Position numbers and translations under genes: made by a program. This document shows, piece by piece, positions 2,327 through 60,992 of a DNA stretch of 64,000 bases (position 1 is the first letter of the stretch; the number at the start of each line of letters is the position of its first letter). Origin of the DNA: Marinobacterium profundum (GTDB lineage Bacteria; Pseudomonadota; Gammaproteobacteria; Pseudomonadales; Balneatricaceae); NCBI RefSeq assembly GCF_001528745.1, contig NZ_BCNS01000175.1:1-64000 (forward strand), written 5' to 3'. The notes beneath the pieces are model-generated. The model was not told the origin of the DNA. It did not search any database and saw nothing but the letters and a program-made list of their open reading frames with translations.

Positions 2327-4240
2327 ATGTGCGGAATCGCTGGACTGCTTAACCTAGATCTTCAACCGGTCGATGCCGGACAGCTTCAACAAATGAACGA
2401 CATCCAGACTCACCGCGGGCCGGACGCCGGCGACACCTACATTGCCGGACCTCTGGGGTTGGCCCACAGGCGTCTGTCCATCATCGACATCGCCAGCGGC
2501 CAGCAGCCGCTGGTCAACGCCGAGGACAACGCGGTCATCGTTTTCAACGGCGAGATCTACAACTTTGCATCCCTGCGAGAAGAACTCATAGGTCTCGGCG
2601 CTGGATTTCGCACCCATTCGGACACCGAGGTAATCCTGCAGGCCTGGAAGGCTTGGGGCAAGGCCTGCGTCAATAGACTGCGCGGCATGTTCGCCTTTGC
2701 CATCTGGGACAAGGACAGCGAGCAACTCTTCATCGCCCGCGACCGCCTGGGGATCAAACCGCTCTACTACAGTCTGATTAATGGCCGCCAGCTGGCCTTT
2801 GCCTCCGAGCTCAAGGCACTGCAGTGCCTTCCACAGCTCGACCACCAGCTCGACGCCCGCGCTATTGCCGACTACTTCACTTTTGGCTACATACCCGACC
2901 CCAAATCGATATTTTCCGGTGTCCATAAACTGCCACCGGGCCATACCCTGCTGCTGAAACGGGGCCAGACTCAACCCACTATCGAGCAGTACTGGGACGC
3001 CAGCTTCGCTGACCCCTTGCAGGTGCGTGACCAAAAGCAACTTGATGAGGAGCTGATCGAACGGCTGCGCGAGGCGGTGGGAATACGCCTTGTTTCCGAA
3101 GTACCGATCGGCGCCTTCCTCTCTGGCGGGGTCGACTCCAGCGCCGTGGTTGCCCTGATGGCCGGACTAATGGAGCAGCCGGTTAACACCTGCTCCATCG
3201 GTTTCGACGTGCCCAGCTTCAATGAAACTGAGTTCGCGCGCCAGGTGGCCGAGCGCTACCAGACCAATCACCAGGAGCACCAGGTGGCGGTGGACGATTT
3301 CGGTTTGCTCGACACCCTGTCAGGCCTCTATGACGAACCCTACGCCGACAGCTCTGCGATCCCGACCTACCGCGTCTGTGAACAGGCTAAAAAGCGGGTT
3401 ACCGTCTGCCTGTCCGGCGACGGCGGCGATGAGCTGTTCGCGGGCTACCGCCGTTACCGCTGGCATATGCTTGAAGAACGGATACGCGGACTGGTCCCGT
3501 CGGCGATTCGCAAGCCGGTATTTGGCCTGCTGGGCAACTACTACCCTAAACTGGATCGGGCGCCGAAGTATCTGCGTGCCAAATCGACTTTCCAGGCACT
3601 GCAGCGCGAGGCACTGGCCGCCTACCTACATACCGTATCCTTCACGCCCGAGTTGATATTCAAGCAGCTGTTCACGCCCGAATTTAACAAACGCCTGAAC
3701 GGCTACCGCCCGCTGGAAGTGTTCGAAGGTCACAAACAGCAGTTTGATGGCGACGACCCACTGTCTCTGATCCAGTATCTGGATATGAAGACCTACCTGC
3801 CCGGTGACATCCTCACTAAGGTGGATCGTGCAAGTATGGCCCACAGCCTGGAAGTTCGGGTGCCACTCCTCGACCACGAGTTTTTGGGCTGGGCCAACCG
3901 CATTCCCGCAAACCTGAAACTACAGCGCCGTGAAGGCAAGTACATTTTCAAGCGCGCGCTGGAGCCTCACCTACCTAGCAATGTGCTCTACCGACCCAAA
4001 ATGGGATTTGGCGTGCCCGTCGCCCGCTGGATGCGTGGCCCCCTGGCCGACACCCTGCGTCAACGCATCCTTCGCGGGCATCTGCAAACCCTGGGAATTT
4101 TCAATCAAAAGACGCTGAACCGCCTAGCCGACGAACACATTCGCGGGACGAGCGACCACAGCGTTACGCTTTGGGCGCTGCTGATGTTCGAGGCCAGTAT
4201 CAGGCGCTCAATGGCCGGTGATCAGGCAGCCGCTGCATGA
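2327..4240 (+). CDS. Glutamine-dependent amidotransferase 1, exosortase A-associated (asparagine-synthetase-like)
   Basis: A 637-residue class II glutamine amidotransferase fused to an asparagine-synthetase domain. Cys2 of the mature MCGIAG start is the glutaminase nucleophile, with NGEIYN near residues 74-79. The synthetase PP-loop SGGVDSS lies at 266-272, and SGDGGDELFAGYRRY follows near 390. This corresponds to TIGR03108, found in XrtA loci. By family chemistry it would adenylate a carboxylate and aminate it with ammonia from glutamine; the substrate in this locus is unknown, possibly a sugar acid or amino-acid-like decoration. It shares an ATGA overlap with the next glycosyltransferase, indicating translational coupling. 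A second asparagine-synthetase-like protein is at 35731-37479. Confidence 0.92.
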   Translation: MCGIAGLLNLDLQPVDAGQLQQMNDIQTHRGPDAGDTYIAGPLGLAHRRLSIIDIASGQQPLVNAEDNAVIVFNGEIYNFASLREELIGLGAGFRTHSDTEVILQAWKAWGKACVNRLRGMFAFAIWDKDSEQLFIARDRLGIKPLYYSLINGRQLAFASELKALQCLPQLDHQLDARAIADYFTFGYIPDPKSIFSGVHKLPPGHTLLLKRGQTQPTIEQYWDASFADPLQVRDQKQLDEELIERLREAVGIRLVSEVPIGAFLSGGVDSSAVVALMAGLMEQPVNTCSIGFDVPSFNETEFARQVAERYQTNHQEHQVAVDDFGLLDTLSGLYDEPYADSSAIPTYRVCEQAKKRVTVCLSGDGGDELFAGYRRYRWHMLEERIRGLVPSAIRKPVFGLLGNYYPKLDRAPKYLRAKSTFQALQREALAAYLHTVSFTPELIFKQLFTPEFNKRLNGYRPLEVFEGHKQQFDGDDPLSLIQYLDMKTYLPGDILTKVDRASMAHSLEVRVPLLDHEFLGWANRIPANLKLQRREGKYIFKRALEPHLPSNVLYRPKMGFGVPVARWMRGPLADTLRQRILRGHLQTLGIFNQKTLNRLADEHIRGTSDHSVTLWALLMFEASIRRSMAGDQAAAA

Positions 4241-31447: not shown

Positions 31448-33718
31448 TCAATTTTCCGCAGCGCTTTTTAATCTGGCAAGAAAATTCTTCATCTTGGATA
31501 ACTCATTGATAAGTAAAACAACTATACCTGAAAGGGTGCGATGGTTAACAATTTGAACTCCATATAGACATTTACTCTGACTCATCCATTCCTTTTTAAA
31601 AGAATCCAAACCGGTAAGAAAGTCAATTTTTTCAACTTTATCTGTCTTTATTACTCTTTCGATCATTTTCATAGTAAGTACCGTACCAGGCGATACACTT
31701 TTATAAGCTTGGTCATAGGCTAATTTATAAATGTAAGCTGTATTATTAGCTACAACCCACATTTGAACCGCAACAGGCTTACCTGAAACTTCTAGAATAC
31801 CTAACCTGAGACTATCTTTTTGAGCACACATTCTGGAAAATCCATTAATAAAACCCGGATAGGGCTCATCGGCCTTCCAACTATTTTCATAAACCCTATG
31901 GTAATCTTTCATTCTCAATTCAATCGCATTGACATCAGTATAAATACTGATACCCCAATCACCCTCCGCATCCAATTTCTTAAATTTTCTTTTGATTGTA
32001 TTAATCACACGCGACGGACGACCGGATAAATAAACTTCAAAATCATCACAGCTTTCATGAAAGAAATTTTTTGTAATAAAATAGTCGAATTTTGAAGCTA
32101 GAACCCCATTAATCTTGATTAAATCATTTCTGGATTCGCCACTAATAGGGTAAATGTCGACAACATCCCACCCCGGCACTTCTTTCCAAAGGTATTTCAA
32201 AAAATGGCTGTAAGCATCTTCCCTGGTGGTTAGGTTATTGTCAATAATGACGTCAAATATGGGAGAATAGTAGTTTGACAATCCAGTTATTTTCCGTACT
32301 TTCACACCATGAAAATGTGCCTCATTACGCCACATCGGCAGTACTGCTAACGCGCTACCATCATTGCCTGTAAGGCACAAGAAGAAAACATTTCCAGCAC
32401 CGATTGCCACGGTATCGCAGAAGTTTTCAAACCAATCACGCCCCAGAAATATCGAATCCTGTTCCTTACCTTCAAGCAAATTAAGGAACGTCTCGGGCAG
32501 GGTATCAATACGCGGATAACTTGACACATCAGTTCCGGGGAGGGATTCGTTCTGGTTTTTCACCAGACGCTTGGCTAAGGAGCACGATATTCGATAAAGC
32601 GCCTTGCGTGAACATCGTAGAAAAGGCTTTGGATCTCGCCGGCTGAAAAAGCTGAAAACAGGACGCTTTATTTTACCCTTTACGGACACAATCCGAGGAA
32701 GGTATTTAACAGGACCAAACGTGTCCCTTTCGCTATCAAACCAGATTGTCGGCGTGTAAACCCCTGTAGCGATTGCTACAGTCTGTCCGGTGGAGCTGAG
32801 ATACTCGATTGCAGGCAGATCGCAACCCGCTTGGATGCAAAGACCCACCCAAAAATCAGTGCGTCCAACCGTCGGTTCTATAACCCAGTAACGTCCGGCT
32901 TCATCCCTTTTGAACTCCAGTGACACCGGGCCGCAAAGGCCTAGACCGTTGAAAAAAGCCTTTGTTAAGTCAGTTAGCTCAGGCATGTCGACAGAAACGG
33001 CAACCGTGGTCTGCCCCAGTGCCGGCGGGTACGATGCCAGCTTGTTGCCCTCAAAGCTGACTAATGGGTGGCCATTCTCTAGGTAAAGCGCACAAAAATA
33101 GAGATCCTTGTCTGTACCGCTAACCCACTCCTGGACGAGAAAAGGATAGTCGCCAGGGAATTGGTCGACTACCGCTTCGAGTTCTTCAGTGGACATGCAC
33201 TTGATTGCCTTGAAGCCAGACTGGGGGTTTGCAGGCTTGATAATCAATGGCAGTTGCAGCAATGCCAACTGAGTTTTTATATCAGCTCTGGTTTCCAGCA
33301 CCACCGAAGCCGGGTAATTGAGGCCAGTCTCCTTGCATCGGCTCTCGATATTGCTTTTCAGCAAAAATTTTTGGACCTGGTCAACGCAACCTTCCCAACT
33401 AAGGATATAAGCCCCCCTGAGCCGGTCGATATTACTGGCAATTACCCGTACATTATTATCGTTGGAGGGAAATAACACTATGTCACGCGATGATGGTATC
33501 CGTTGTCGAAAAGCATGCAGGTCATCGACCAGCGAATCGTCCTTTATGCTTTCCACATAATGGATACGGGCAGAATTAGTCAGCGCCCCCGGTATCGACG
33601 AATTGGCTTCAAAGGCGTGTACTTCAATTCCCAGGCGTTGCAATGACCGCGCAATAGCCAATCCATGACTGCAAAGCCCCACTACCAAGGCACAAGGTGC
33701 GTTCTGAGGAAGTACCAT
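31448..33718 (-). CDS. ATP-grasp / GNAT-like (FemAB-like) acyltransferase fusion
   Basis: A 756-residue two-domain protein. Residues 1-380 form an ATP-grasp unit: ALVVGLCSHGLAIARSLQRL, LPLIIKPANPQSG and GPVSLEFKRDEAGRYWVIEP. Residues 430-740 resemble the GNAT or BioF2-like acyltransferases seen with FemAB proteins: WDVVDIYPISGE, then GKPVAVQMWVVANNTAYIYK and PGTVLTMKMIERVI. The N-terminal half is GC-balanced while the C-terminal half (31448-32400) is clearly AT-rich, so the gene appears mosaic. AGGAG lies six bases before the ATG. An enzyme that activates a carboxylate and one that passes an acyl or aminoacyl group fit a polymer-decorating role, which is inference. Confidence 0.82.
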   Translation of the reverse strand: MVLPQNAPCALVVGLCSHGLAIARSLQRLGIEVHAFEANSSIPGALTNSARIHYVESIKDDSLVDDLHAFRQRIPSSRDIVLFPSNDNNVRVIASNIDRLRGAYILSWEGCVDQVQKFLLKSNIESRCKETGLNYPASVVLETRADIKTQLALLQLPLIIKPANPQSGFKAIKCMSTEELEAVVDQFPGDYPFLVQEWVSGTDKDLYFCALYLENGHPLVSFEGNKLASYPPALGQTTVAVSVDMPELTDLTKAFFNGLGLCGPVSLEFKRDEAGRYWVIEPTVGRTDFWVGLCIQAGCDLPAIEYLSSTGQTVAIATGVYTPTIWFDSERDTFGPVKYLPRIVSVKGKIKRPVFSFFSRRDPKPFLRCSRKALYRISCSLAKRLVKNQNESLPGTDVSSYPRIDTLPETFLNLLEGKEQDSIFLGRDWFENFCDTVAIGAGNVFFLCLTGNDGSALAVLPMWRNEAHFHGVKVRKITGLSNYYSPIFDVIIDNNLTTREDAYSHFLKYLWKEVPGWDVVDIYPISGESRNDLIKINGVLASKFDYFITKNFFHESCDDFEVYLSGRPSRVINTIKRKFKKLDAEGDWGISIYTDVNAIELRMKDYHRVYENSWKADEPYPGFINGFSRMCAQKDSLRLGILEVSGKPVAVQMWVVANNTAYIYKLAYDQAYKSVSPGTVLTMKMIERVIKTDKVEKIDFLTGLDSFKKEWMSQSKCLYGVQIVNHRTLSGIVVLLINELSKMKNFLARLKSAAEN

Positions 33719-33807: not shown

Positions 33808-34659
33808 CTACTCCCTGAAGCTCGTTACAAATGTCTCAGTCTGGCGAGCCACCCAATCCTTCGCCTGCCGGGTCGAAAAAGTATGATCCGCAGTCTCCAG
33901 GTACACTTGAGACACCGATCGCTCTTTGACGAGTTGTGCCCAGGCAGTGTCTTGGGTGAGCTGAAGGGAAAACGTCTTAGCCGTCAGGTCGTTGCCGCTT
34001 AGCACGAAAAGCACCCTTCCCGGGTATTTTTTCAAGCCATCGAACATGCGCTGCTGATAGCAATTTTCATATGATTCTTTTATTTTGGTCGCGCCCCTGT
34101 TGGCGCTCAGTACCTGCCAAAGCGTACAAACAAACTCCCAGACGCTGCCCATAACGTTGCCCTTACCCCGAATCAACTTGTGCCACAAACTCGGATCCAA
34201 AAACCGACGTGTGTAATAGTGGGAGACTTGAGCCTTGGCCTTTGCTTGGCGATTCTCCAGCCAGGGGTTCAGCAGTACGAGGCCGACCAGGCGCGGATCC
34301 CGGTGAGCGTATATGAGTGCCGCTGAAGCGCCATCGCACAATCCCCAAAGCACGACTTTTTCGACCCCGGTACAATGTTGCAGGAAACAGTCGACCGCAG
34401 CTGCGATGTCGGCATCCAGATTATCGAATGCCTTCTTATCCCCGCTGCTGTCCCCCATCCCGGTGACATCAAACCGCAGCACCGGGACTCCCTGGTTTGC
34501 CAGCGCCCTCGCCAAGTGCACAAATTGGCGATGACTCCCGACCCGATACTGCGGACCGCCCACCACTATGACGACCCCGACGCTTGAGTGGTCAACCGAG
34601 TGCAGGATAGCCGCCAGCTGTTGCCCCTGGCTCGTGAAGCAGACAGCATGTTCAGGCAT
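33808..34659 (-). CDS. Alpha/beta hydrolase 1, exosortase A-associated (TIGR03100 type), cysteine nucleophile
   Basis: A 283-residue alpha/beta hydrolase. The nucleophile elbow reads GLCDGAS, placing Cys108 where most relatives have serine. GGPQYRVGSHRQFV near 34-47, FDVTGMGDSSG near 63-73 and the C-terminal ADHTFS with His259 complete the expected framework. This matches the TIGR03100 hydrolase 1 of exosortase A loci, in which the cysteine is, as I recall, usual. It may be a thioesterase or acyltransferase acting on the acyl carrier protein encoded two genes upstream. The start overlaps the hydrolase 2 gene by eight bases. Confidence 0.88.
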   Translation of the reverse strand: MPEHAVCFTSQGQQLAAILHSVDHSSVGVVIVVGGPQYRVGSHRQFVHLARALANQGVPVLRFDVTGMGDSSGDKKAFDNLDADIAAAVDCFLQHCTGVEKVVLWGLCDGASAALIYAHRDPRLVGLVLLNPWLENRQAKAKAQVSHYYTRRFLDPSLWHKLIRGKGNVMGSVWEFVCTLWQVLSANRGATKIKESYENCYQQRMFDGLKKYPGRVLFVLSGNDLTAKTFSLQLTQDTAWAQLVKERSVSQVYLETADHTFSTRQAKDWVARQTETFVTSFRE

Positions 34660-35467
34660 GGCACACTCTGTCGGCTTCCTGCAGACATTTCAACGTCAAT
34701 ACACTCAGATTCTCCGCATCGTAGGAATCCGGCACTTGCCAAAACGGCACACCGCTGCACACCTCCAAACTTAACCTGCCACCTGTCCATTGATCGTGAA
34801 GCCTGGAGACAACCAGTGGCACCTTCTCGCTAGCGGCCTCGATCCAGATAACAGTGACCGCATCCAAACAGGCCGAAGGCTGCAAAGAGAGAGCGCTGAC
34901 TTGGGAGACCAAACTTGAACTCATTAGGTACCCTGCCACTTCCACCGGCTCACCCTCCAGACAGCGCCTGTACCAGTTAATCTGATTGCCTCCTCGTCCC
35001 TGCATCATCTCGCTCATCTGCTTCAGACGAAAAAACTGGCTCATCAACTGATGACCATTGATGACGGGCTTCCAGAGCAGTAAACGGTCCACTACATCTG
35101 CATTACGATCATCGACGTAGTGGGCTGCCAATAAGGCGCCAAGTCGCAATCCCCAGAGGGTCACCGAGGAGCGTTGCTTTTGCCCGATCCACGCCAACGC
35201 GGCGGCGATATCATCGAGCCACACCGGCACTGTGGCCTCATCAATTTCCCCTTCACTGTCACCGGTACCAAAAAAATCCAGCAGCACGACAAAATAACCT
35301 GCCTCTGCCAACATTCGGGCCTGCCTGGCCACCACTGCACGGGAGAGATTCATCTCTTCCATAAAAGGAGGCAGAAAAAGCACAGCGCGCTCGGCGGAGC
35401 AGTTCCCGAAGGTCGCCAAATAAAGGCGTGCCTGGCCTCCGGTAATAAAATGCCCTTGGTACGTCAT
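34652..35467 (-). CDS. Alpha/beta hydrolase 2, exosortase A-associated (TIGR03101 type), nucleophile replaced by Arg
   Basis: A 271-residue alpha/beta hydrolase-like protein: FLPPFMEEMNLSRAV near 31-45, LDFFGTGDSEG near 63-73. The nucleophile elbow reads GLRLGA, so Arg108 sits at the position of the catalytic Cys108 of hydrolase 1, and no clear C-terminal catalytic His is seen. It is therefore probably not a hydrolase and may act as a partner or regulatory subunit of hydrolase 1. It corresponds to TIGR03101. Its ATG overlaps the ACP stop as ATGA. Confidence 0.88.
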   Translation of the reverse strand: MTYQGHFITGGQARLYLATFGNCSAERAVLFLPPFMEEMNLSRAVVARQARMLAEAGYFVVLLDFFGTGDSEGEIDEATVPVWLDDIAAALAWIGQKQRSSVTLWGLRLGALLAAHYVDDRNADVVDRLLLWKPVINGHQLMSQFFRLKQMSEMMQGRGGNQINWYRRCLEGEPVEVAGYLMSSSLVSQVSALSLQPSACLDAVTVIWIEAASEKVPLVVSRLHDQWTGGRLSLEVCSGVPFWQVPDSYDAENLSVLTLKCLQEADRVCHA

Positions 35468-35712
35468 CTGCCCAAATGCTCTGTCACAAAACTTACCAGC
35501 GCGCCAAGGGTTTCAAAGCTGTCAGCACTGACTTCATCATCGTCGATAGCGATTCCGAACTCGTCCTCCAAGCTGGTAAGAAAGGTTACTATGGCCATCG
35601 AATCCAGTTCGGCCACATGTCCAAGCAGCGGAGCATCACGACTCATGGAAGCTATGTCGCCTCTGGACGTGACAGCTATCAGCAGATCTTTTACAGTCGT
35701 CTCATAATCCAT
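35464..35712 (-). CDS. Acyl carrier protein, exosortase A locus
   Basis: An 82-residue acyl carrier protein. The phosphopantetheine site is Ser38 in ELDSMAIV, a variant of the usual DSL. I start at ATG 35712 (AGGGA upstream) rather than the in-frame TTG at 35730. It lies between the asparagine-synthetase-like gene and the hydrolase genes, and the acyl ligase encoded at 40251 is the likely loader. It would hold an acyl or aminoacyl thioester for the locus's decoration pathway in the cytoplasm. Activation needs a phosphopantetheinyl transferase, which is not in this window. Confidence 0.9.
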   Translation of the reverse strand: MDYETTVKDLLIAVTSRGDIASMSRDAPLLGHVAELDSMAIVTFLTSLEDEFGIAIDDDEVSADSFETLGALVSFVTEHLGR

Positions 35713-35730
35713 ATTTTGAATTCCCTGCAA

Positions 35731-37479
35731 TCAATAATTCCGATCAAGCCACAACGCCAACACCATCAGTACCCACACCAGCTCACCATAATACGAGGCG
35801 TGCCCGTTCTTATGACGGTGAATAGCCTCATCAATAAACGTCCTCTCAAAAAGGTCGTAGCGCTGCAGTGAGTCAATCGCCTCATAGGCCATTTTTTGCA
35901 ATTTTGGCTGATCTTTGGTCCAGAGCCCAAATGGCAGCCCAAATCCATGCTTGGTCTTGTGGATAATTTTGTCCGGAAGAAAACCGCCCATCGCGCGTTT
36001 GTACAGATGGCGCAGGTTGCCACGGGTTAACTTGATATCTGCTGGAACGCGCAATGAAAAATCCACCAGACGATCGTCCAGCATTGGATAAACCACATCC
36101 ACCCCAGCCAGCCGGCACATGCTGCTGACCTTGACCAGATCGTTATCCGCCAGGGTATGCTTCCAGTCGAGGTAAAGCAGGCGATCCAGCGGACCAGCCT
36201 TGGGTAGTGCATCGTATAGCTGCTGACACTGGCGGTCAGGCTCAAACAGGTCGACGCCCTTGACTACACTGGCCGAAAATATTGCTTTGCGATCAAGCAA
36301 ATTGAGAAAATTGTAATACTGGACGTTCTCCGGGACCGTCATCTTTAGCTGTCGGACGAAACTCTTGGCTTTGCCCAGTAACGCGGGAGAGTCCGGCAGC
36401 CCAGAGCGCAGCAAGGCAAGATCCAGCGTTCCAATCACGGGAGTGAGCCTTTGCCGCCAGCGATCCAGCTGCAACTGTGTGGCATAGCGCTGGTTTCCAG
36501 CGAAGAGTTCGTCGCCGCCGTCACCGGCGATCAACCGGTTGACCCCGTGGGATTTGGCAAGCTGTGCGCAGAAATAGGTGGGAATGACCGAACTGTTGCC
36601 GAAGGGCTGATCCATACTGCCAACCACCTGCGGTAGCGTCGCAAAGACGTCTTCCGGAGTCATACAATATTCGTGGCCGTTGAGGCCGAAGTGTTTGACC
36701 GCCGTGCGGGCATAGCCGATCTCATCGTAGCGCGCGATGGGAAAGCCGATGGAGAATGCGTCGGGGTTTCGGATCGACTGCGAAGCCAGCCCGGCAAGAC
36801 TGGAACTGTCCAGGCCGCCACTGAGAAAACAGCCGGTATTGTCCTTGGCACAGTAATCGGGCACGACCGCTTGCATCAGCGCAAACAGCTCGTCAGCCAA
36901 CTGCCGTTCACTCTGAGGCGCATGCTGATCAAATGCAGGCTTCCACCAAGTCTCGCGAGACAACGTACCCTGACGCCAAGTGACCCGCTGGGCAGGCCCG
37001 AGACAGTAAACACCTTCATAGATGGTTCTCGGACTGGGGATCATATGGTGGTACAGATAGTTAACCACCGCCTGCCGGGAGATAGCCAGGGGCTCTGTAA
37101 CAGCGCCGCGCAGTGCTTTAAGGCTGTCCGCTACAATCAGGCCGCTAAAGACTGATCGGTAGTAGAGCCGATGGGTCGCAAAGCGATCGGCAAAAAGATG
37201 GCAGGTGCCAGAATGCCTGTCATCGATGACCAGTGCGTAGTGGCCGCTCAGTGCGTGCACAAAACAGTCGCCCTGATCGCGAAATAGTTGCCCAATCAAT
37301 TCAGGAGCCGCCGCGTCCCTGCTGCCTTTTAGCAGCGGCTGGCCGTAACAGTAAACCTCACACCCATGCACTGACGCTCGTTGCCACTTGTTGCTGGCAC
37401 TGAGGTCATGTGAATCACTGATGAGGACCTGAACCGCAGCATTGGCGGTCTCTCTTACTAACTCTGTGCTATCCGGCAT
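35731..37479 (-). CDS. Asparagine-synthetase-like protein lacking the glutaminase cysteine
   Basis: A 582-residue protein with a degenerate N-terminal amidotransferase-like domain (LSGHYALVIDDRH near 78-89, HLFADRFATHRLYY near 94-107) and an intact synthetase domain: PP-loop SGGLDSSS at 220-227 and AGDGGDELFAGNQRY near 330. It begins MPDSTEL, so the catalytic Cys2 of true class II amidotransferases is missing. It cannot use glutamine in the usual way and may instead use free ammonia or another amine, or make an amide or ester by adenylation, as beta-lactam synthetases do. It is the first gene of the leftward operon, with GGAAGGA at good spacing, and sits 18 bases before the ACP gene. Confidence 0.85.
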   Translation of the reverse strand: MPDSTELVRETANAAVQVLISDSHDLSASNKWQRASVHGCEVYCYGQPLLKGSRDAAAPELIGQLFRDQGDCFVHALSGHYALVIDDRHSGTCHLFADRFATHRLYYRSVFSGLIVADSLKALRGAVTEPLAISRQAVVNYLYHHMIPSPRTIYEGVYCLGPAQRVTWRQGTLSRETWWKPAFDQHAPQSERQLADELFALMQAVVPDYCAKDNTGCFLSGGLDSSSLAGLASQSIRNPDAFSIGFPIARYDEIGYARTAVKHFGLNGHEYCMTPEDVFATLPQVVGSMDQPFGNSSVIPTYFCAQLAKSHGVNRLIAGDGGDELFAGNQRYATQLQLDRWRQRLTPVIGTLDLALLRSGLPDSPALLGKAKSFVRQLKMTVPENVQYYNFLNLLDRKAIFSASVVKGVDLFEPDRQCQQLYDALPKAGPLDRLLYLDWKHTLADNDLVKVSSMCRLAGVDVVYPMLDDRLVDFSLRVPADIKLTRGNLRHLYKRAMGGFLPDKIIHKTKHGFGLPFGLWTKDQPKLQKMAYEAIDSLQRYDLFERTFIDEAIHRHKNGHASYYGELVWVLMVLALWLDRNY

Positions 37480-37673
37480 CAGCAGCGTCCTTCCTCCTGC
37501 ACTTCACACTTGACTCAGCGCAGTGTAGTACGCATCTTTGCCTCCGACTTGCAGCAACAAAAAATTCGCGAACATCTCCGCCCTGCACTATCTTTTTCTC
37601 ACCTGTGTATCAACATCACTGCTATGTCTGATGTGATCTGTTTCCAAGGCTCGCTATTTGTGAAAGGATTTTC
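37480..37673. promoter_or_regulatory. Divergent control region between the two XrtA operons
   Basis: These 194 bases separate the leftward asparagine-synthetase/ACP operon from the rightward FemAB/xrtA operon, so they should carry both promoters. On the minus strand a GG-N10-GC arrangement (37545-37532) has sigma-54 spacing, but the flanks CGGAGG and ATGCG fit the consensus poorly. No better promoter was recognised. Confidence 0.35.
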
Positions 37674-38696
37674 ATGGTTGTGATCAAGACACTGGACGTG
37701 ACGAGACAAGATTGTTGGGATCAGTTTGTGGAAACCTGCGAAGAAGCCACCTTTTTTCATCGGGCTGGCTGGAGATCCGTGATCGAGTCGACAACCGGCC
37801 ACACGCCTTACTACCTTTATGCTGAGCAAAATGGTCAGATTTGTGGCATTTTGCCGCTGGTTGAGGTTAAAAGCATGCTGTTTGGCCATTCACTAGTGTC
37901 TACCCCATTTTGCGTCTATGGGGGCGTGGCGTCGATTAGCGATGCGGCGACTACCAAGCTTATTGATCACGCCAAGACGCTGGCGGAAACACTGGGGGTC
38001 GACTACCTCGAACTCAGACACCGCCAGGCTAAAACCGCTGGTTGGCTCACCAGGCACAAACACGCCACCTTTCGTCGTCCTCTGAGTAACGATGAAGGCA
38101 ATCTGCAGGCGATGAAACGCAAACAGCGCGCGGTTATCCGACAGGCGATCAACAATGAACATACCGCAACCATAGAGACGGATCTTGATCAGTTTTACCA
38201 TGTCTACTCCACCAGCGTCAGAAACCTCGGGACACCGGTATTTTCACGGCGTTTTTTCCAGGCACTGCAGGCTGCTTTCAAGCACGACTGCGAAGTGGTC
38301 ACCATCCATCACCAGGGTAAGCCTGTCAGCAGCCTGATGAGCTTCTACTTTCGTGATGAGGTGCTACCGTACTATGGCGGCGGGATGCCGAATTCACGCA
38401 GTCTGAAAAGTATGGATTTCATGTACTGGGACCTGATGCAACGGGTCACTGCCAAGGGGTTTGCGACCTTCGACTTCGGGCGCAGCAAAACTGACAGCGG
38501 TCCCTATCACTACAAGCGACACTGGGGCTTCGAACCCGAACCGCTCTGCTATGAGTACCACTTGGTCAGAGCGACCCAGTTACCGGATAACAGCCCCAAC
38601 AATCCTAAATACCGCTACTTTATCAAGTTGTGGCAGCACCTGCCGTTGAAGCTGTCTCAGCAACTCGGCCCTTACCTGTCGAAAAATTTGGCATGA
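37674..38696 (+). CDS. FemAB-like PEP-CTERM system protein (TIGR03019 type)
   Basis: A 340-residue protein of the GNAT-like FemAB family: FFHRAGWRSVIESTTGHTPYYL at residues 24-45, the mid-segment MKRKQRAVIRQAI, and GKPVSSLMSFYFRDEVLPYYGG, FDFGRSKTDSGPYHYKRHWG near the C-terminus. It corresponds to TIGR03019, found with exosortase A. FemAB enzymes pass amino acids from aminoacyl-tRNA to peptidoglycan precursors; here the acceptor may be a glycan intermediate. GAAAGGA lies ahead of the ATG. The stop overlaps the xrtA start as ATGA. Confidence 0.9.
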   Translation: MVVIKTLDVTRQDCWDQFVETCEEATFFHRAGWRSVIESTTGHTPYYLYAEQNGQICGILPLVEVKSMLFGHSLVSTPFCVYGGVASISDAATTKLIDHAKTLAETLGVDYLELRHRQAKTAGWLTRHKHATFRRPLSNDEGNLQAMKRKQRAVIRQAINNEHTATIETDLDQFYHVYSTSVRNLGTPVFSRRFFQALQAAFKHDCEVVTIHHQGKPVSSLMSFYFRDEVLPYYGGGMPNSRSLKSMDFMYWDLMQRVTAKGFATFDFGRSKTDSGPYHYKRHWGFEPEPLCYEYHLVRATQLPDNSPNNPKYRYFIKLWQHLPLKLSQQLGPYLSKNLA

Positions 38697-40234
38697 CCAC
38701 GTTCGAACCCGCCATCGACCGCGACACGCTGGGCCTCAGGCGTCAACAACGCAAAGCACTGTTGACGCTGACACTGCTGCTGCTCGTTTACGCCGCAGTC
38801 TTCTGGCCCAGCCTGATGTCCATGGCCGCGATCTGGTGGCGCTCTGAGACCTTTGCCCACGGGATGCTGATCCCTCTGATCAGCCTCTGGTTGATCTTGC
38901 GCAAACGTTCCCAATTGACATCGCTCGACATGGGAGCGGATTGGGTAGCGCTAATTCCATTACTGGGATTATGTTTTGCCTGGTTGCTGGGACGGGCCGC
39001 CGATGCGCTGGCGATGGAACAGTTGGCCACCACTTTAGTTCTGATTGTACTGGTAGTCCTCGCCCTGGGTAGGCCACTCGCACGGGCGTTGGCATTCCCC
39101 CTGGCTTATCTGATTTTCGCGGTCCCCTTTGGCGATCAGTTAACGCCATACCTGCAGCAGATCACCGCAGATATTACGGTTCAGGCGCTGAGGCTCAGCG
39201 GCGTGCCGGTACATTTCAACGGTCTCCTTATCGAAATTCCCAGCGGCCGATTCGAGGTTGCTGAAGCCTGCAGCGGGCTGCGCTACCTAATCGCCTCTAT
39301 TGCCCTTGGGACCCTATATGCTCACCTCACTTATCGAAGCCTGCGCAGCCGTCTGATCTTTATCGCCGCATCCATATTGGTACCTATACTGGCCAACGGC
39401 ATACGCGCCTACCTCATCGTACTGATCGCCCACATCTCGGATATGAAATATGCCACTGGGGTCGATCATCTGATTTACGGTTGGCTGTTTTTCGGCCTAG
39501 TGGTGATGCTGATGTTCTGGGTCGGTAGCTGGTGGCGAGATCCAGCGCCAAAATTCAACCCCGCACAGAAAGCTATCGCCTTAAACTGTTTGACTGTGGA
39601 GAGGCCTCGCACACTGGCCTATGCGACTCCAGCAGCCGCGCTAGTACTTTTGCTACTAACCTTTAATTGGGGTCAGTTGATGAAGCACACTCCACAGCTT
39701 TCCGCATTGCCAATCCAGCAACTTTCCTTGCTTCCATGGATTCGACAACCCGCCGAAACAATGTACTGGCGCCCCAAATTTGTCGGTGCCGACCGTATTT
39801 TTCACGCAACTTATCGACTGGATCGCGACGCCGCTGTAGCACTTTATATCGCCGATTATCAATCCGAACATCAGGGCAAGGAACTGATTAACAGCCTGAA
39901 CCGCTGGTTTACCGTGAATGCCTGGACGCCGACAGGGCGCTCCAGTCGTACTGTCGCAGTCGGCTCCAGCCAAATCAAGGTCAATGTACTCGAGCTGCGG
40001 ACGCTAGATGGCAGCATGCGGCGAATCTGGTACTGGTATTACGCCTACAAACGGCCCGTCGCTAACCCCCTGATGGTGAAGCTGCTGCAAGCCCTGAATA
40101 AGCTTAGCGGGGCACATGAAGTGGCCAGTGCATACGCGCTGGCGGTGGATTATGAGGACAGTCCCACCGCCGATGCAGCCCTGACCCGATTTATCAAGGA
40201 CAGCTGGCCCGAGCTGACGGCAACCAGCCGCTGA
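38693..40234 (+). CDS. xrtA: Exosortase A with fused EpsI domain
   Basis: A 513-residue inner-membrane protein. Residues 20-290 hold about eight membrane segments and the transpeptidase-like triad of exosortases: Cys193 in EACSGLRYL, Arg238 in NGIRAY and His259 in GVDHLIYGW. The rest, after a membrane segment near residue 325, is a periplasmic EpsI-like (DUF3485) domain with YRLDRDAAVALYIADYQ and VLELRTLDGSMRRIWYWY, as usual for XrtA. It is predicted to recognise the PEP-CTERM tail, cut it, and attach or release the protein. I chose ATG 38693, overlapping the FemAB stop, because the longer frame to 38630 lies inside that gene. The substrate tail is visible at 63028. Confidence 0.95.
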   Translation: MTTFEPAIDRDTLGLRRQQRKALLTLTLLLLVYAAVFWPSLMSMAAIWWRSETFAHGMLIPLISLWLILRKRSQLTSLDMGADWVALIPLLGLCFAWLLGRAADALAMEQLATTLVLIVLVVLALGRPLARALAFPLAYLIFAVPFGDQLTPYLQQITADITVQALRLSGVPVHFNGLLIEIPSGRFEVAEACSGLRYLIASIALGTLYAHLTYRSLRSRLIFIAASILVPILANGIRAYLIVLIAHISDMKYATGVDHLIYGWLFFGLVVMLMFWVGSWWRDPAPKFNPAQKAIALNCLTVERPRTLAYATPAAALVLLLLTFNWGQLMKHTPQLSALPIQQLSLLPWIRQPAETMYWRPKFVGADRIFHATYRLDRDAAVALYIADYQSEHQGKELINSLNRWFTVNAWTPTGRSSRTVAVGSSQIKVNVLELRTLDGSMRRIWYWYYAYKRPVANPLMVKLLQALNKLSGAHEVASAYALAVDYEDSPTADAALTRFIKDSWPELTATSR

Positions 40235-40250
40235 ATTTTTTGGACAGACG

Positions 40251-41879
40251 ATGAGTACGCGCATGCACTACCTCCTGCACCATTTGATCGAAACCAGGGC
40301 CACGCAAAACGAAACACAACCGGCGTTGTCCCACAAGCAGGAGCAGACCTGTTACGGCGAACTCGCTACCCGAGTACAACGGCTTGCCGCGGGGTTGAGA
40401 GAGCTCGGCTTGCAGCGCCATGAACGAGTCGCCATCTACCTGCCCAAACAGCACGAAACCGTCATCAGCATATTCGCCGCCACGCAGGCGGGGGGGGCCT
40501 TCGTACCCATTAACCCAGTCCTGAAAGCACCACAGGTTCAGCATATACTCAGCGACTGCAATGCCCGCATCCTGATCACCAGCCACGCACGGCTGCAACA
40601 ACTGGCCCCAAATCTGGCACACCTGACTGATCTGAAGCAGGTGGTACTGGTAGACGACAACCCATCCTCAGCGAATGCACCCTACTCCGTTTACTCCTGG
40701 CATCAGCTCCAGGACACGCCGACCAGCCGCGCGTCACCGGGCTCAGCAACCGACGCTGATATGGCAGCCATCCTCTATACCTCTGGCAGCACAGGAAAAC
40801 CCAAAGGGGTAGTACTGTCTCACCGTAATCTGATCGTCGGTGCCCAGAGTGTTGCGGGCTATCTCGACAACTCACCGCAAGATCGTATCCTTGCAGTACT
40901 GCCTTTGAGCTTCGACGCGGGCCTCAGCCAAGTCACGACGGCATTCGAATCCGGTGCCTGCTGTTATCTGATGGACTATCTGCTGCCCAGCGATGTGCGA
41001 CGCCAGGTAACCCAACATCGCATAACCGGAATCACCGCGGTACCGCCGCTGTGGAACCAGATCGCCTCACTGGAATGGAGCCAAGATGCAGCAAGCTCAG
41101 TACGCTACTTTGCCAATACGGGCGGACATATGCCGCAACCCTTGCTGGCCAAACTGCGCACACTTTTCCCCAACGCCCAGCCATTCCTAATGTACGGCTT
41201 GACCGAAGCGTTCCGCTCCACCTATTTGCCTCCGGACCAGATCGACTTCAAACCAGGGTCTATAGGCAAAGCAATCCCCAACGCCGAGGTACTGGTATTG
41301 AGGGAGGATGGCACGCCCTGCCAACCCCATGAGCCCGGGGAACTGGTTCACCGCGGCCCTCTGGTGAGTCAAGGCTACTGGAACGACCCACAGAAAACTC
41401 GCGAGCGCTTCAGGCCCTTGCCCGGTCAAGCCGAGGGACTGGTGTTTAAGGAACTGGCGGTCTGGTCGGGGGATTCGGTCACCCAAGATGAAGAGGGGTA
41501 TCTCTATTTTATCGGTCGCAGGGATGAAATGATCAAAACCTCCGGCTACCGGGTCAGCCCCGACGAGATTGAGGAAATGGCCTACCAAAGTGGTCTTGTC
41601 CGCGAAGCCGCAGCTGTCGGCGTGCCCCATGCAACTCTGGGCCAGGCAATACTACTGATAGTGACGGTGCCCGCGACAACGGATTCCACGGAGTCAGACC
41701 TCGACGCCCTGCTGCAGCAATGCCGCGAACAGCTGCCAAATTTTATGGTGCCGCATAAATGTATCCTACAAGACGAACTGCCACGCAATCCCAACGGCAA
41801 GATAGACCGTCGATTACTCGCCCAACGGTACGCTGATTTATTCAATGATCATTCGGAGCCCACCCATGCCGACGGTTAA
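40251..41879 (+). CDS. AMP-forming acyl-CoA ligase, exosortase A-associated (TIGR03098 type)
   Basis: A 542-residue adenylate-forming enzyme. The P-loop is LYTSGSTGKPKGVV near residue 178, followed by FLMYGLTEAFRSTYL near 310 and the C-terminal lysine region NPNGKIDR near 520. It corresponds to TIGR03098, an acyl-CoA ligase family confined to exosortase A loci. It probably activates an acid and loads it on the carrier protein encoded at 35464 or on CoA; the acid is unknown. It starts 17 bases after xrtA and its last 14 bases overlap the decarboxylase gene, so the three genes form a coupled set. Confidence 0.92.
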   Translation: MSTRMHYLLHHLIETRATQNETQPALSHKQEQTCYGELATRVQRLAAGLRELGLQRHERVAIYLPKQHETVISIFAATQAGGAFVPINPVLKAPQVQHILSDCNARILITSHARLQQLAPNLAHLTDLKQVVLVDDNPSSANAPYSVYSWHQLQDTPTSRASPGSATDADMAAILYTSGSTGKPKGVVLSHRNLIVGAQSVAGYLDNSPQDRILAVLPLSFDAGLSQVTTAFESGACCYLMDYLLPSDVRRQVTQHRITGITAVPPLWNQIASLEWSQDAASSVRYFANTGGHMPQPLLAKLRTLFPNAQPFLMYGLTEAFRSTYLPPDQIDFKPGSIGKAIPNAEVLVLREDGTPCQPHEPGELVHRGPLVSQGYWNDPQKTRERFRPLPGQAEGLVFKELAVWSGDSVTQDEEGYLYFIGRRDEMIKTSGYRVSPDEIEEMAYQSGLVREAAAVGVPHATLGQAILLIVTVPATTDSTESDLDALLQQCREQLPNFMVPHKCILQDELPRNPNGKIDRRLLAQRYADLFNDHSEPTHADG

Positions 41880-43107
41880 CTCCCCGTTAGATCACAAGAC
41901 CCGATGGCTGGATATTCGCCACAATGAACTCTACATAGGCGGTCTGCCGCTATCCCGGCTAGCCGCTCAAATGCCCCAAACCCCCTTTTACGCGTATGAC
42001 CGCCAGCTGATAGCGCAACGTATCGCCGAACTGCGCAGGCGACTGCCGGTTGGCATCGAGCTACATTACGCCCTCAAGGCCAACCCAATGCCGGCATTGG
42101 TAGATTTCATCGCGCCCCTGGTGGATGGTTTCGACGTTGCATCACATCAGGAAATGCTGGTGGCGATCAATGGCGGTAAAGCACCCAGCGAGATCAGCTT
42201 TGCCGGCCCCGGCAAGACTCAGCGCGAAATCGAAGCCGCGGTCGCCGCCGGCATCGTCCTTAACGCCGAATCTTTCACTCAAATTGATCAGGCGGCGCGG
42301 GCCGGTGCCGAACTGGGGATCGCACCCCGAATTGCCGTCAGGCTAAACCCGGAGTTCGAACTAAAATCCTCTGGCATGCGCATGACAGGCGGGGCCAAAC
42401 CATTCGGGATTGATACTGAACAATTCCCAGAACTGCTCGAGAGTATGCGAGAACTTGGCCTGGAGCCGGAAGGGCTGCATCTCTATACCGGCTCCCAGAA
42501 TTTGAACCCGACAGCCATTTGCGAAGCACAAGAAGCCGCGATATGCCTTGCCTGTGAGTTTATTCAGCGGTTCGCGCTCAGGTTGCGCTTTATCAATATC
42601 GGGGGAGGATTCGGTATCCCATACTTTCCGGGAGAATCCCCCCTTGACCTTACCACTATCGCCGAACAACTGGTCCGACTACAAAGACAAACGCAGCAGG
42701 TCTCCCCTAAGACCACGCTAGTTCTGGAACTAGGGCGCTACCTGGTGGGTGAAGCTGGCATCTATGTGTGTAGAGTCCTTGAGCGTAAAACATCCCGAGG
42801 CACTGTCTACCTTATCACCGACGGAGGCCTGCATCACCACCTTGCCAACTCCGGCAACTTTGGCCAGGTGCTGCGCAAAAATTATCCTGTACTGATCGGC
42901 AACCGCGCTGAGGGGGAGGAAAAAGAACAGGTCACAATTGTCGGGCCACTCTGTACCCCGCTGGATATCCTTGCCGAAAAAGTGATGTTGCCAAAAGCGC
43001 AACCGGGCGATTGGGTGGTCGTCCGCCAGTCCGGCGCCTATGGTTTGAGCGCCAGTCCGCAACAATTTTTGAGTCACCCTCAGGCAACAGAAGTGCTGAT
43101 TGGGTAG
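41866..43107 (+). CDS. PLP-dependent decarboxylase, exosortase A-associated (TIGR03099 type)
   Basis: A 413-residue alanine-racemase-fold decarboxylase like diaminopimelate decarboxylase. Lys71 in HYALKANP binds PLP, the glycine loop GGGFGIPYF lies near 248, ELGRYLVGEAG near 287 binds the substrate side, and a C-terminal GPLCTPLD holds the expected cysteine. It corresponds to TIGR03099. It should decarboxylate an amino acid, perhaps one held by the acyl ligase or ACP. I start at ATG 41866 with GGAG seven bases upstream; an in-frame upstream start at 41845 lies deeper inside the ligase gene. Confidence 0.92.
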   Translation: MPTVNSPLDHKTRWLDIRHNELYIGGLPLSRLAAQMPQTPFYAYDRQLIAQRIAELRRRLPVGIELHYALKANPMPALVDFIAPLVDGFDVASHQEMLVAINGGKAPSEISFAGPGKTQREIEAAVAAGIVLNAESFTQIDQAARAGAELGIAPRIAVRLNPEFELKSSGMRMTGGAKPFGIDTEQFPELLESMRELGLEPEGLHLYTGSQNLNPTAICEAQEAAICLACEFIQRFALRLRFINIGGGFGIPYFPGESPLDLTTIAEQLVRLQRQTQQVSPKTTLVLELGRYLVGEAGIYVCRVLERKTSRGTVYLITDGGLHHHLANSGNFGQVLRKNYPVLIGNRAEGEEKEQVTIVGPLCTPLDILAEKVMLPKAQPGDWVVVRQSGAYGLSASPQQFLSHPQATEVLIG

Positions 43108-44811: not shown

Positions 44812-45002
44812 TCAAAGTTCCACACTTTAGCTGCAGATGCACCTGCATAAGCGCGGCGAAACCAGAATGAAACATAAACACCTAGAAAAACTGGAATGCG
44901 GCAGCGTTCCCCATTCACATTGTGCCCCCAGCCCAAAAAGCAAATCATGCAAACAGCGGTGGGCACCCCAGGGAATGCAGTCCAATACAGATGCAGGATG
45001 AC

Positions 45003-46091
45003 ATGACACAATCCCCCAGAGCAGCCATGCCAACACGTCCCCCAACGAAAGCGACTCGCTATGAGCAGGTGCAAGCCGAACTTAAAGCTACCCCAAAAGT
45101 ATGGTTGGTCACCGGCGTCGCCGGCTTCATTGGCTCAAACTTATTGGAAACGCTGCTCGAACTTGACCAATACGTTGTCGGCCTGGACAACTTTTCCACC
45201 GGCCATAAGCGCAACCTCGACGAAGTCCAGACCCTGGTTTCGCAAACACAATGGTCTCGCTTTCAATTCATCAAAGGCGACATCTGCAACCTTGAAGACT
45301 GTCACTGCGCCATGGTCTTCCCCAAGACGCTACAGAAAGTAAACTATGTGCTGCATCAGGCAGCTTTGGGGTCAGTTCCCCGCTCCATTGAGGATCCGAT
45401 CACGAGTAACGCGACTAACATTACCGGTTTCCTGAACATGCTGGTGGCAGCGCGCGATGCCAGGGTCACAAGCTTTACCTATGCGGCTTCGAGCTCCACC
45501 TATGGCGATCACCCGACCCTGCCCAAAGTGGAAGAGAACATTGGCAAGCCACTGTCTCCCTACGCGGTAACAAAGTACGTCAACGAGCTATACGCCCAGG
45601 TGTTTGCCAAATCCTATGGTTTCAGCACCATCGGTTTGCGCTACTTTAACGTCTTTGGCAAGCGTCAGGACCCGAACGGCGCCTATGCTGCGGTAATTCC
45701 AAAATGGACGGCAGCAATGATTCACAACGAGGATGTGTTTATCAACGGCGATGGCGAAACCAGCCGGGATTTCTGTTTTATAGAAAACACCGTGCAGCTG
45801 AATATCCTCGCCGCTACCGCACCAGCTGAGGCAAAGAACGAGGTCTACAACGTGGCACGGGGAGACAGAACCAACCTGAATACTCTGTTCGATGCCCTGC
45901 AAACCGCCCTGCTAGGCTGCGGCGTGACTTACACCAAGGCACCTGTTTACCGGGACTTTCGCGCAGGAGACGTACTCCACTCCCAGGCAGATATCAGCAA
46001 AGCACAAACCAAACTGGGCTACACCCCCATGCATCATATTTATGAGGGTATTGACCAAGCTATGCCATGGTATGTGCGAGCTCTGAGTTAA
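45003..46091 (+). CDS. wbpP: UDP-N-acetylglucosamine 4-epimerase, WbpP/TviC-like
   Basis: A short-chain dehydrogenase-fold epimerase of about 362 residues. [17 protein letters not shown] near residue 33 is the NAD-binding loop, [14 protein letters not shown] and SPYAVTKY supply the Ser and Tyr-x3-Lys active site, and [20 protein letters not shown] follows. The sequence is very close to Pseudomonas WbpP, which converts UDP-GlcNAc to UDP-GalNAc and the matching uronic acids. The start is uncertain: ATG 45003, 44991 or 45027 are all possible, since homologues begin near ATRYEQ. It stands 191 bases after the sugar transferase gene with no clear feature in the gap. Confidence 0.9.
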
Positions 46092-59812: not shown

Positions 59813-60107
59813 CCCGATCAATACCGCCAGGCAAGCAGCAATTGAAGAGCAGTATAGTCACGAAGCACGACCTCTGTGGATCATACAACCTAGGTTCTTG
59901 CGGCACCCAGGAAGGCCTTATGGCAATGGCGATATATCCTGCAGAGCTTTTCAATCATGCGGTTTAACTCAATACAGGCCGACTCTGCCCCACCGTCGAC
60001 TACACTTATCGAGCGCTGCTTACCGAACACGTTCAGAACAAAACGTCAGCCAAACTTTTTTGCCAGGGCGACTACCCTCTCAAGAGAATGACAAGGAATT
60101 CAGAGCT

Positions 60108-60992
60108 ATGCTCCCTGCCCCATCCCCCGTGATATCGACAGACTATGCGATCACTATCGATGTTGAGGACTATTTTCACGTGGCGGCGTTCGAAACGGTT
60201 ATTTCTCCCGAGCGCTGGGAACAGTATCCCTGTGGCATTGAAGTCAACGTCCGGCGTATTATTGCCTCGCTGGACGCGGCTGCTGGAAAGGCGGGAAAAG
60301 CGACCAAAGCCACTTTTTTTGTTCTCGGCTGGGTCGCAGAGCGTTACCCCGACCTGATTCGGGAAATCGCCGCGCTTGGACATGAAATAGCCAGTCACGG
60401 CTATCATCACCAGCGGCTGAACCATCTTTCTCAAGACGAATTCAGGCAGGACATAACCGCGTCCAAAGCGCTATTGGAAGACTTGATCGGGGCTCCAGTG
60501 GCGGGCTACAGAGCCCCCAGCTTTTCGTTTGACGAAAACAGGCCCTGGATTCAGGATGAGCTTCGCGAAGCGGGGTACCGCTACAGCTCCAGCATCAATC
60601 CCGTTCCACATGATCTATACGGCTACCGGCACGCCCCGCGCACGCCTTTTCTATGGGACAACGGTCTGCTGGAAGTTCCGGTAGCTACTGCTCAGGTGCT
60701 CAACCGACGCATTCCCTGTGCCGGTGGCGGCTACTTTAGGCTCTACCCCTATCCCCTGTCCAAACGACTACTGCAAAAGGCCGCCCGGCAGCTGGGCGGG
60801 CCTGTTGTTTTTTATATTCACCCCTGGGAAATCGCGCCTAACCAACCGAGAATTCAATCGGCATCGGCAAAATCGAGGTTTCGACACTATTTGAACCTGC
60901 ACCGAACCCTGCCAAGACTGGAGCGGCTGCTAAGCGATTTCCATTGGGGAAAAATGTCTGATCTGCCGGTTGTGATTCACCATTCAAAGTAA
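60108..60992 (+). CDS. XrtA-system polysaccharide deacetylase (TIGR03006 type, DUF3473)
   Basis: A 294-residue CE4 enzyme. It has DVEDYFHV at residues 18-25, ATFFVLGWVAERYPDL near 68-83, the metal-binding SHGYHH at 96-101, and the C-terminal FYIHPWEI (DUF3473). It matches TIGR03006, an XrtA-specific family that usually lies just after the ExeA-like ATPase; here it is separated from it by the HPr-rel-A and prsK/prsR genes. It should deacetylate the exopolysaccharide or its lipid-linked unit. I chose ATG 60108, where homology begins, over a frame running from 59898 that adds an unrelated leader. Confidence 0.92.
   Translation: MLPAPSPVISTDYAITIDVEDYFHVAAFETVISPERWEQYPCGIEVNVRRIIASLDAAAGKAGKATKATFFVLGWVAERYPDLIREIAALGHEIASHGYHHQRLNHLSQDEFRQDITASKALLEDLIGAPVAGYRAPSFSFDENRPWIQDELREAGYRYSSSINPVPHDLYGYRHAPRTPFLWDNGLLEVPVATAQVLNRRIPCAGGGYFRLYPYPLSKRLLQKAARQLGGPVVFYIHPWEIAPNQPRIQSASAKSRFRHYLNLHRTLPRLERLLSDFHWGKMSDLPVVIHHSK

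Follow-up and report, generated by a model that had tools for sequence, protein, structure and literature searches.

Decarboxylation of an amino acid while it is bound to a carrier protein is known from a few antibiotic pathways. One of these is the synthesis of butirosin, in which the loading enzyme, BtrJ, is an ATP-grasp ligase. In the systems AlmEFG (glycine-modified lipid A of Vibrio) and DltABCD, an amino acid is adenylated and loaded onto a carrier, from which a glycan or lipid of the envelope receives it; neither system is known to have a decarboxylase. According to the accessible part of one article (PMC11284099), 3-methylaspartate must sit on the acyl carrier protein (ACP) VinL before VinO decarboxylates it in vicenistatin synthesis, and FlvN loads aspartate in the case of fluvirucin B2, whose starter is beta-alanine. 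In the Wbp/Vim system of Porphyromonas, an aminoacylated uronamide accepts the sorted protein, as stated in the available part of PMC7468200. Here, we analyzed a 64-kb stretch of Marinobacterium DNA (the window) that contains an exosortase A (XrtA)/PEP-CTERM exopolysaccharide (EPS) locus, recognized by XrtA over its cut-off together with PrsK, a PEP-CTERM-box response regulator, and EPS export genes. We think it reasonably probable that an AMP-forming ligase, an ACP, and a pyridoxal phosphate (PLP) decarboxylase encoded in this locus make up a self-contained carrier pathway and that, where XrtA is present, a protein that we call hydrolase 1 hands the resulting group to an acceptor of the XrtA pathway. 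Gene content, family membership, residue conservation, and co-occurrence were observed; from these we infer every chemical step, substrate, and acceptor. The genes at the center of the analysis are as follows.

35464..35730, minus strand: stand-alone ACP, probable start ATG 35712, attachment serine Ser38 (PF00550, 28.5 bits; cut-off 20.8)
40251..41879, plus strand: AMP-forming ligase, predicted amino-dicarboxylic-acid:ACP ligase (TIGR03098, 766.9 bits; cut-off 592.35)
41845..43107, plus strand: fold-III PLP decarboxylase, BtrK-like, predicted substrate an ACP-bound amino acid (TIGR03099, 579.1 bits)
33808..34659, minus strand: hydrolase 1, alpha/beta-hydrolase fold, predicted thioesterase or acyltransferase coupling the ACP to the XrtA pathway (TIGR03100, 317.7 bits)
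34652..35467, minus strand: hydrolase 2, alpha/beta-hydrolase homologue, probably a non-catalytic partner (TIGR03101, 206.3 bits; cut-off 202.75)

On the minus strand the order is AsnB-like protein, ACP, hydrolase 2, hydrolase 1, ATP-grasp+GNAT fusion, and PEP-associated O-glycosylation ligase; on the plus strand it is FemAB, XrtA, ligase, decarboxylase, and sugar-phosphate transferase. The nearest named loci found belong to M. sedimentorum and M. rhizophilum; identity to the decarboxylase of the window is 89% in the former and 86% in the latter. A sequence-only reading of this DNA had proposed an acyl or aminoacyl decoration pathway built around the ACP, and family profile scores and coordinates place all of the genes it named where it had put them. 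Most lie within the range it gave for the pathway, while the two hydrolases fall just outside, at 33808-35467 (minus strand). Its attachment residue, Ser38, holds if translation starts at ATG 35712 and becomes Ser44 if the start is TTG. The further carboxylate-activating proteins it listed also exist, namely, two ATP-grasp proteins (10238 and 31448), both with weak ATP-grasp matches, and a PaaK-like protein (7873).

The best sequence matches of the decarboxylase in the PDB were two BtrK entries (266 and 265.7 bits, against 166.6 bits for the best LysA), one of which bears the name L-glutamyl-[BtrI ACP] decarboxylase. A Foldseek search of the PDB with an AlphaFold model of the protein, built from nine sequences and having a mean predicted local distance difference test (pLDDT) score of 80.6, also returned BtrK at ranks 1 and 2 (E values of 8.7e-34 and 1.2e-32; next, 5.9e-30). 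Against the curated lysA family, the decarboxylase scored below cut-off (245.2 versus 297.9 bits). A separate LysA over its own cut-off was present in 20 of the 20 genomes searched for LysA, and the TIGR03099 gene is therefore no LysA substitute there.

In a tree of 54 relatives of the decarboxylase, 22 LysA proteins, and BtrK, the LysA proteins fell on one side of a 100/100 branch and BtrK fell on the side of the family. Two rows of this tree (L089 and L090), wrongly cut from long fused frames, were not removed, and their placement is meaningless. Twenty of the LysA rows had been chosen from 21 candidates by the motif GP.CE[ST] (L127 was dropped), so its presence in them is not evidence. In LysA, a glutamate and its neighboring residues bind the far end of diaminopimelate. 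At this CE[ST] site, the two solved LysA proteins have Glu, and Thr is found in 54/54 aligned relatives and in BtrK; the decarboxylases of two loci omitted from the alignment by frame selection (L050 and L051) both carry GPLCTP, and thus Thr. The site that reads DAGMND in the two solved LysA proteins is GGMHHH in BtrK and mostly GGxHH[H/Q] in the relatives, with the first His in 42 of the 54, the second in 46, and either His (29) or Gln (21) at the third place. An assignment of the decarboxylase to the BtrK kind, and not to LysA, is thus well supported, and it is predicted to act on an ACP-bound amino acid.

For the ligase, a search of the PDB with the family profile ranked VinN as the best single-domain chain (339 bits), below LgrA (539 bits, in domains of 244 and 290 bits) and 8xjz (435 bits, a chain of 1,634 residues). 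The equivalent of Asp235, the aspartate by which amino-acid adenylating enzymes hold the amino group, is present in 49/49 aligned relatives; 49/49 also have an Arg in the beta13-beta14 loop of the pocket, where GrsA has Ile330. Position 301 is Ser or Thr in 48/49; position 236 is Tyr or Phe in 40/49 and Ala in the remaining 9/49, which include the window. Both the Asp and the Arg motifs were also found in 20/20 further relatives and in all five ligases whose loci (L058, L063, L070, L074, and L077) frame selection had omitted from the alignment. Seven other AMP ligases from the same genome (7 of its 14 further match rows) have Asp or Arg in the corresponding column in no case. In VinN, whose ligand 3-methylaspartate is bound as a beta-amino acid, these places are held by Asp230, Phe231, Ser299, Lys330, and Arg331, with equivalences taken from the available text of a review (PMC11253843) and not from a residue-by-residue alignment. 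These residues, together with the BtrK likeness of the decarboxylase, give good support to the prediction that the ligase loads an amino-dicarboxylic acid through its far carboxyl group and that a beta- or gamma-aminoacyl thioester results from decarboxylation on the ACP; the far carboxylate must be the ACP-linked one, because decarboxylation after loading needs a free alpha-carboxylate. The sequence-only reading had left it open whether the ligase loads an amino acid or an acyl group. The resemblance to VinN and the pocket residues speak for an amino acid and not for a fatty acyl group, and, together with the likeness to BtrK, they lend support to its suggestion of decarboxylation on the carrier.

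We next turn to co-occurrence, for which all presence counts are of genomes and not of independent events. In a survey of 397 Pseudomonadota genomes, with curated cut-offs plus looser thresholds, the decarboxylase was over cut-off in 32 and the ligase in 31, with both present in 31 (decarboxylase only, 1; ligase only, 0). The grouping is thus far from chance. At the looser thresholds, a ligase was found in 45 of 48 decarboxylase genomes. XrtA was over cut-off in 42/397 genomes, 29 with and 13 without the decarboxylase, and three decarboxylase genomes lacked XrtA. The two genes are not always neighbors: of the 29 genomes that have both, 9 carry the decarboxylase on a different contig from xrtA or at a distance of over 20 kb. 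The ACP was detected in 38 of 40 loci (the window and L039-L077, with misses in L041 and L067) and in none of 10 XrtA control loci (L097-L106), by a model built largely from those same 40 loci; with the single window ACP as query plus frame selection, it was found in 31/38. Of the 16 looser loci (L078-L093), 8 gave a weaker match to the ACP. The Asp-Ser of the attachment site is invariant in 21 aligned ACP sequences, window included, and the closest solved chain is 2lki (58.8 bits), which is listed only as a "putative uncharacterized protein." Three of the looser loci (L086, L089, and L090) have the decarboxylase plus several further ligase-like frames and are perhaps small peptide-synthetase clusters.

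A sample of one family (119 genomes, 78 with and 41 without XrtA) contained 26 genomes, from 22 genera, with the decarboxylase and without XrtA. In the 20-kb stretches examined from 20 of these 26, none of which had been used to build the ACP model, the ligase was present in 20/20, the decarboxylase in 20/20, and the ACP in 17/20; the same stretches yielded hydrolase 1 in none, hydrolase 2 in none, and FemAB and GNAT in one each. Ligase, decarboxylase, and ACP thus outlive the other genes, being kept in loci without XrtA where the rest is lost. Among the recurrent neighbors of the trio in these genomes, no acceptor was seen; two proteins of these loci that were checked by family were a thioredoxin reductase and an FAD oxidoreductase.

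Hydrolase 1 has a distribution of its own. It was present in 29/29 genomes that combine decarboxylase and XrtA (over cut-off in 28; G124 scored 166 against 168.45 bits), in 0/3 decarboxylase-only genomes, in 0/13 XrtA-only genomes, and in 1 of the 14 looser decarboxylase genomes that were searched out of 16 (G028, 79.6 bits). In the family sample, it was found in 76/78 genomes with XrtA versus 1/41 without (the exceptions being G437, G462, and G456) and, among decarboxylase genomes only, in 75/77 with XrtA versus 1/26 without. Two of these exceptions, G437 and G462, have XrtA and no hydrolase 1 match. A cysteine (Cys108) occupies the nucleophile place in 29/29 hydrolase 1 sequences, Asp224 and His259 are conserved in 90% or more, and a Cys enzyme of this type would suit thioester chemistry. 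The structure model of hydrolase 1 is poor (mean pLDDT, 56.4; three near-identical sequences) and unusable. Hydrolase 2, which had been listed as one of two alpha/beta hydrolase-fold proteins, is unlikely to be a normal hydrolase, since an arginine (Arg108) stands at the nucleophile place in 18/18 sequences; it is likely a non-catalytic partner. Counted over loci and not over whole genomes, it lies next to hydrolase 1 in 21 of the 29 loci that encode the latter, is not seen in the other 8, and was once found without hydrolase 1. The two hydrolases would be an XrtA-dependent adaptor, hydrolase 1 being found almost only where XrtA and the trio co-occur.

We propose an amino-dicarboxylic acid as the substrate of the ligase, L-aspartate being the most likely and L-glutamate the second choice. 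The ligase would adenylate the carboxylate remote from the amino group and would move the activated amino acid onto the phosphopantetheine of the ACP. The PLP decarboxylase would then remove the free alpha-carboxylate on the carrier to leave the ACP thioester of beta-alanine or gamma-aminobutyrate, whose primary amine is free. In XrtA genomes, hydrolase 1 with its Cys nucleophile, assisted by the probably dead hydrolase 2, would accept the group from its ACP thioester onto the Cys and, alone or with a GNAT or FemAB protein, pass it on. The recipient would be an acceptor of the XrtA pathway, probably either a sugar or a sugar linked to a lipid.

Several points weigh against this proposal. The model of the decarboxylase has a pLDDT below 50 at residues 330-344, the very stretch that covers the HHH motif, and the exact position of BtrK in the tree is weak, on a long branch. 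The window ligase has Ala and not an aromatic residue at position 236 and Ser at the place of VinN Arg331, and, taken alone, it scores higher against LgrA (293.8 bits) and 8xjz (228.8 bits), both multi-domain peptide synthetases, than against VinN (201.3 bits). At the looser thresholds, the ligase is matched in 14 genomes in which the decarboxylase is not. Neighborhood, moreover, is no proof that this ACP is the partner of the ligase. Hydrolase 1 could serve to clear misloaded ACP (editing) and not to transfer, and it is maybe not strictly tied to XrtA, because a TIGR03100 prediction has been published for Bcam1334, from a Burkholderia EPS cluster (PMC3584217, the accessible part of which gives no score). 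Finally, IdnL3, the PLP decarboxylase of incednine synthesis, acts on a free amino acid, beta-glutamate, before loading (PMC11284099, available part).

Other genes of the window that bear on the proposal, or on the XrtA pathway in general, are given below.

35731..37479, minus strand: AsnB-like amide synthetase without glutaminase Cys, accessory (TIGR03108, 249.7 bits; far below the cut-off of 816.9)
31448..33718, minus strand: ATP-grasp and PF13480 GNAT fusion, accessory, candidate aminoacyl transferase (PF13480, 87.4 bits at 570-709; N-terminal ATP-grasp matches weak)
37674..38696, plus strand: FemAB-family protein, VimA-like (TIGR03019, 453 bits)
38630..40234, plus strand: exosortase A with EpsI domain, XrtA (TIGR03109, 351.6 bits; TIGR02914, 82.8 bits)
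2327..4240, plus strand: canonical XrtA amidotransferase, WbpS-like, glutaminase Cys present (TIGR03108, 971.8 bits; N terminus MCGIAG)
59898..60992, plus strand: XrtA polysaccharide deacetylase, inferred VimE-like role (TIGR03006, 374.7 bits; cut-off 276.2)
44922..46091, plus strand: UDP-N-acetylglucosaminuronate C4-epimerase-like protein, TviC (NF011728, 484.6 bits; below the cut-off of 760)

Three of the accessory candidates were rejected as general parts of the carrier pathway. FemAB (TIGR03019), which the sequence-only reading had counted among its members, occurs in 77/78 XrtA genomes of the family sample versus 2/41 without XrtA; it follows xrtA and, on this distribution, belongs to the XrtA pathway and not to the carrier unit. 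The FeeM/LuxI-like acyltransferase TIGR03694 was found in 8/13 XrtA-only genomes, 9/29 with both XrtA and decarboxylase, 0/3 without XrtA, and 1/14 looser genomes; its presence in 8 of the 13 XrtA genomes without decarboxylase means that it follows XrtA, and we dropped it as the general transferase of the module. One such gene lies in the genome of the window itself, at C175:75893-76597, 12 kb past the right end of the window.

The AsnB-like protein, proposed as a step of the pathway, turned out to be an occasional extra, present in 8/29 genomes with decarboxylase and XrtA and in 1/13 XrtA-only genomes, a distribution on which we rejected it as a core step. It belongs to a distinct subfamily (600-962 bits in 9/59 genomes, the next best scoring at most 369), as judged by a model from six proteins that include those of five of the nine genomes found. 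The claim that it has no glutaminase Cys stands. An N-terminal MCG is present in 0/9 of the subfamily, window included, and in 3/3 more distant proteins checked; without MCG and with so low a TIGR03108 score, the protein is not the canonical XrtA amidotransferase. Its solved relatives are weak (a hydroxyamidotransferase, 51.9 bits; AsnB, 33.7 bits; beta-lactam synthetase, 31.5 bits). Since its synthetase half is intact and the glutaminase Cys is lacking, the amine that it builds into an amide may be something other than ammonia from glutamine, perhaps that of the aminoacyl group. The single-domain relatives of the ATP-grasp+GNAT fusion, seen in 12 loci, have a median length of 350 aa, which leaves no room for both domains.

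Two further gene groups were observed in the window. One, on the minus strand, comprises a CsaB-like pyruvyl transferase (25352-26617; 148.5 bits, cut-off 213.1), a flippase (26621-28060), and an XrtA-type O-glycosylation ligase (30083-31423), and from these genes the glycan of the window may be pyruvylated. The other, inside the XrtA locus at 52295-54269 on the minus strand, consists of an HprK-related kinase A (TIGR04352, 343.4 bits) and an unmatched 391-aa neighbor.

It is possible to explain the same genes without decarboxylation on a carrier. The decarboxylase might act on a free amino acid (e.g., ornithine, diaminopropionate, or aspartate), with the amine being loaded later or joined by the AsnB-like protein to the carboxylate of a sugar, and with ligase and ACP forming a separate step. 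Besides the precedent of IdnL3, several relatives of this decarboxylase fold use substrates that are not carrier bound (PMC7857480, as far as its available text goes), and an intact synthetase half without the glutaminase Cys is what would be expected of an enzyme using another amine. However, most genomes with decarboxylase and XrtA have no AsnB-like protein, the co-occurrence of ligase and decarboxylase across the 397 genomes is nearly perfect, both persist with the ACP after loss of the rest, the Arg in the ligase pocket suits a second carboxylate on the substrate, and the LysA Glu is lost, as in BtrK; we therefore regard this explanation as rather unlikely. We give even less credence to the ligase being an acyl-CoA or ACP ligase for a fatty or hydroxy acid, with the ACP carrying an acyl decoration, and consider it very improbable. 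The NCBIfam name of TIGR03098 is indeed acyl-CoA ligase, and some loci have TIGR03694 acyltransferases in the vicinity of the ligase or the decarboxylase, but these acyltransferases track XrtA even where the decarboxylase is missing, a PLP decarboxylase requires an amino acid, and the invariant Asp235 and Arg330 are absent from the seven other AMP ligases examined in the genome.

Alternatively, the trio could make an aminoacyl group for lipid A or the lipopolysaccharide (LPS) core, in the manner of AlmEFG, its place in XrtA loci reflecting only shared envelope assembly. In Pseudoalteromonas aurantia (L046:5504-11191), ACP, LpxL-like acyltransferase, MsbA-like exporter, ligase, and decarboxylase follow one another with gaps of less than 10 bases, a row that points to lipid A as the acceptor in that species; in one Endozoicomonas (L045), the genes next to the ACP are those for LPS heptosyltransferases I and II, and survival of the trio beyond XrtA would also fit. 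A lipid A role does not predict that hydrolase 1 tracks XrtA, though, and the LpxL family was found in 0 of the 47 window proteins scanned, a weak point because other loci were not searched for LpxL. On balance, we judge this explanation improbable for the module at large, placing it between the two above. The P. aurantia row itself resembles an AlmEFG-like set plus a decarboxylase.

Returning to the carrier pathway with hydrolase 1 as its link to XrtA, a more specific version would have it make the nucleophile of exosortase A. An omega-aminoacyl group (beta-alanyl or gamma-aminobutyryl) would be placed on an amidated uronic-acid sugar through hydrolases 1 and 2 and FemAB or GNAT proteins, and XrtA would join the C terminus of PEP-CTERM proteins to the amine. 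There is a parallel in Porphyromonas, where PorU-sorted proteins are joined to a seryl-uronamide. The module cannot be the sole source of the acceptor, because 13 of 42 XrtA genomes have no decarboxylase, and we offer this version tentatively, as one that is more probably wrong than right. If true, it would identify the acceptor of the exosortase in module-bearing genomes.

How, then, does the locus compare with the described systems? The families TIGR03098 to TIGR03101 are these genes' own XrtA-associated NCBIfam families, labeled hypothetical equivalogs, with no substrate or joint function given. In the open-licence literature searched, exosortase and butirosin were not mentioned jointly, and exosortase, PEP-CTERM, acyl carrier protein, and decarboxylase were co-mentioned only in unrelated places. 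With butirosin synthesis (BtrI ACP and BtrK), the locus has in common an ACP that stands alone and a PLP decarboxylase of fold III whose active-site motifs are altered in the same manner (HHH and GPLCTP), and in butirosin synthesis the amino acid is decarboxylated while on the carrier; the loader of the window differs in being AMP forming. An AMP-forming ligase, an ACP, and a PLP decarboxylase also occur together in vicenistatin and fluvirucin synthesis (VinN/FlvN, VinL, and VinO), although the window ligase departs from VinN at pocket positions 236 and 331 and no polyketide synthase was found among the window proteins scanned. As to the AlmEFG and DltABCD systems, there was no match to DltB, DltD, or the LpxL family (AlmG/LpxL-like) among the 47 proteins scanned, which do not cover every reading frame.

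The likeness to Porphyromonas Wbp/Vim lies in a VimA-like FemAB protein, a WbpS-like amidotransferase, and a TIGR03006 deacetylase, all over cut-off, the last being the putative VimE counterpart, and a TviC-like epimerase was noted for a WbpABED-type sugar pathway in the window. As a difference, the available part of PMC7468200 mentions no carrier protein or decarboxylase and does not name the aminoacyl donor of VimA. What our analysis would add to this picture is a likely source of amine-bearing acyl groups and an adaptor found almost only with XrtA.

Taken together, carrier-bound decarboxylation of an amino acid is of a known kind, and its predicted place here is unexpected; what antibiotic pathways use would here be an envelope-building step of many Pseudomonadota (ligase and decarboxylase were over cut-off in 31 of the 397 sampled). 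By the gene pattern, a block so far labeled only as XrtA associated falls into two parts, a trio that stands by itself and an adaptor that depends on XrtA, and this split gives a short gene list for tests of the exosortase A acceptor.

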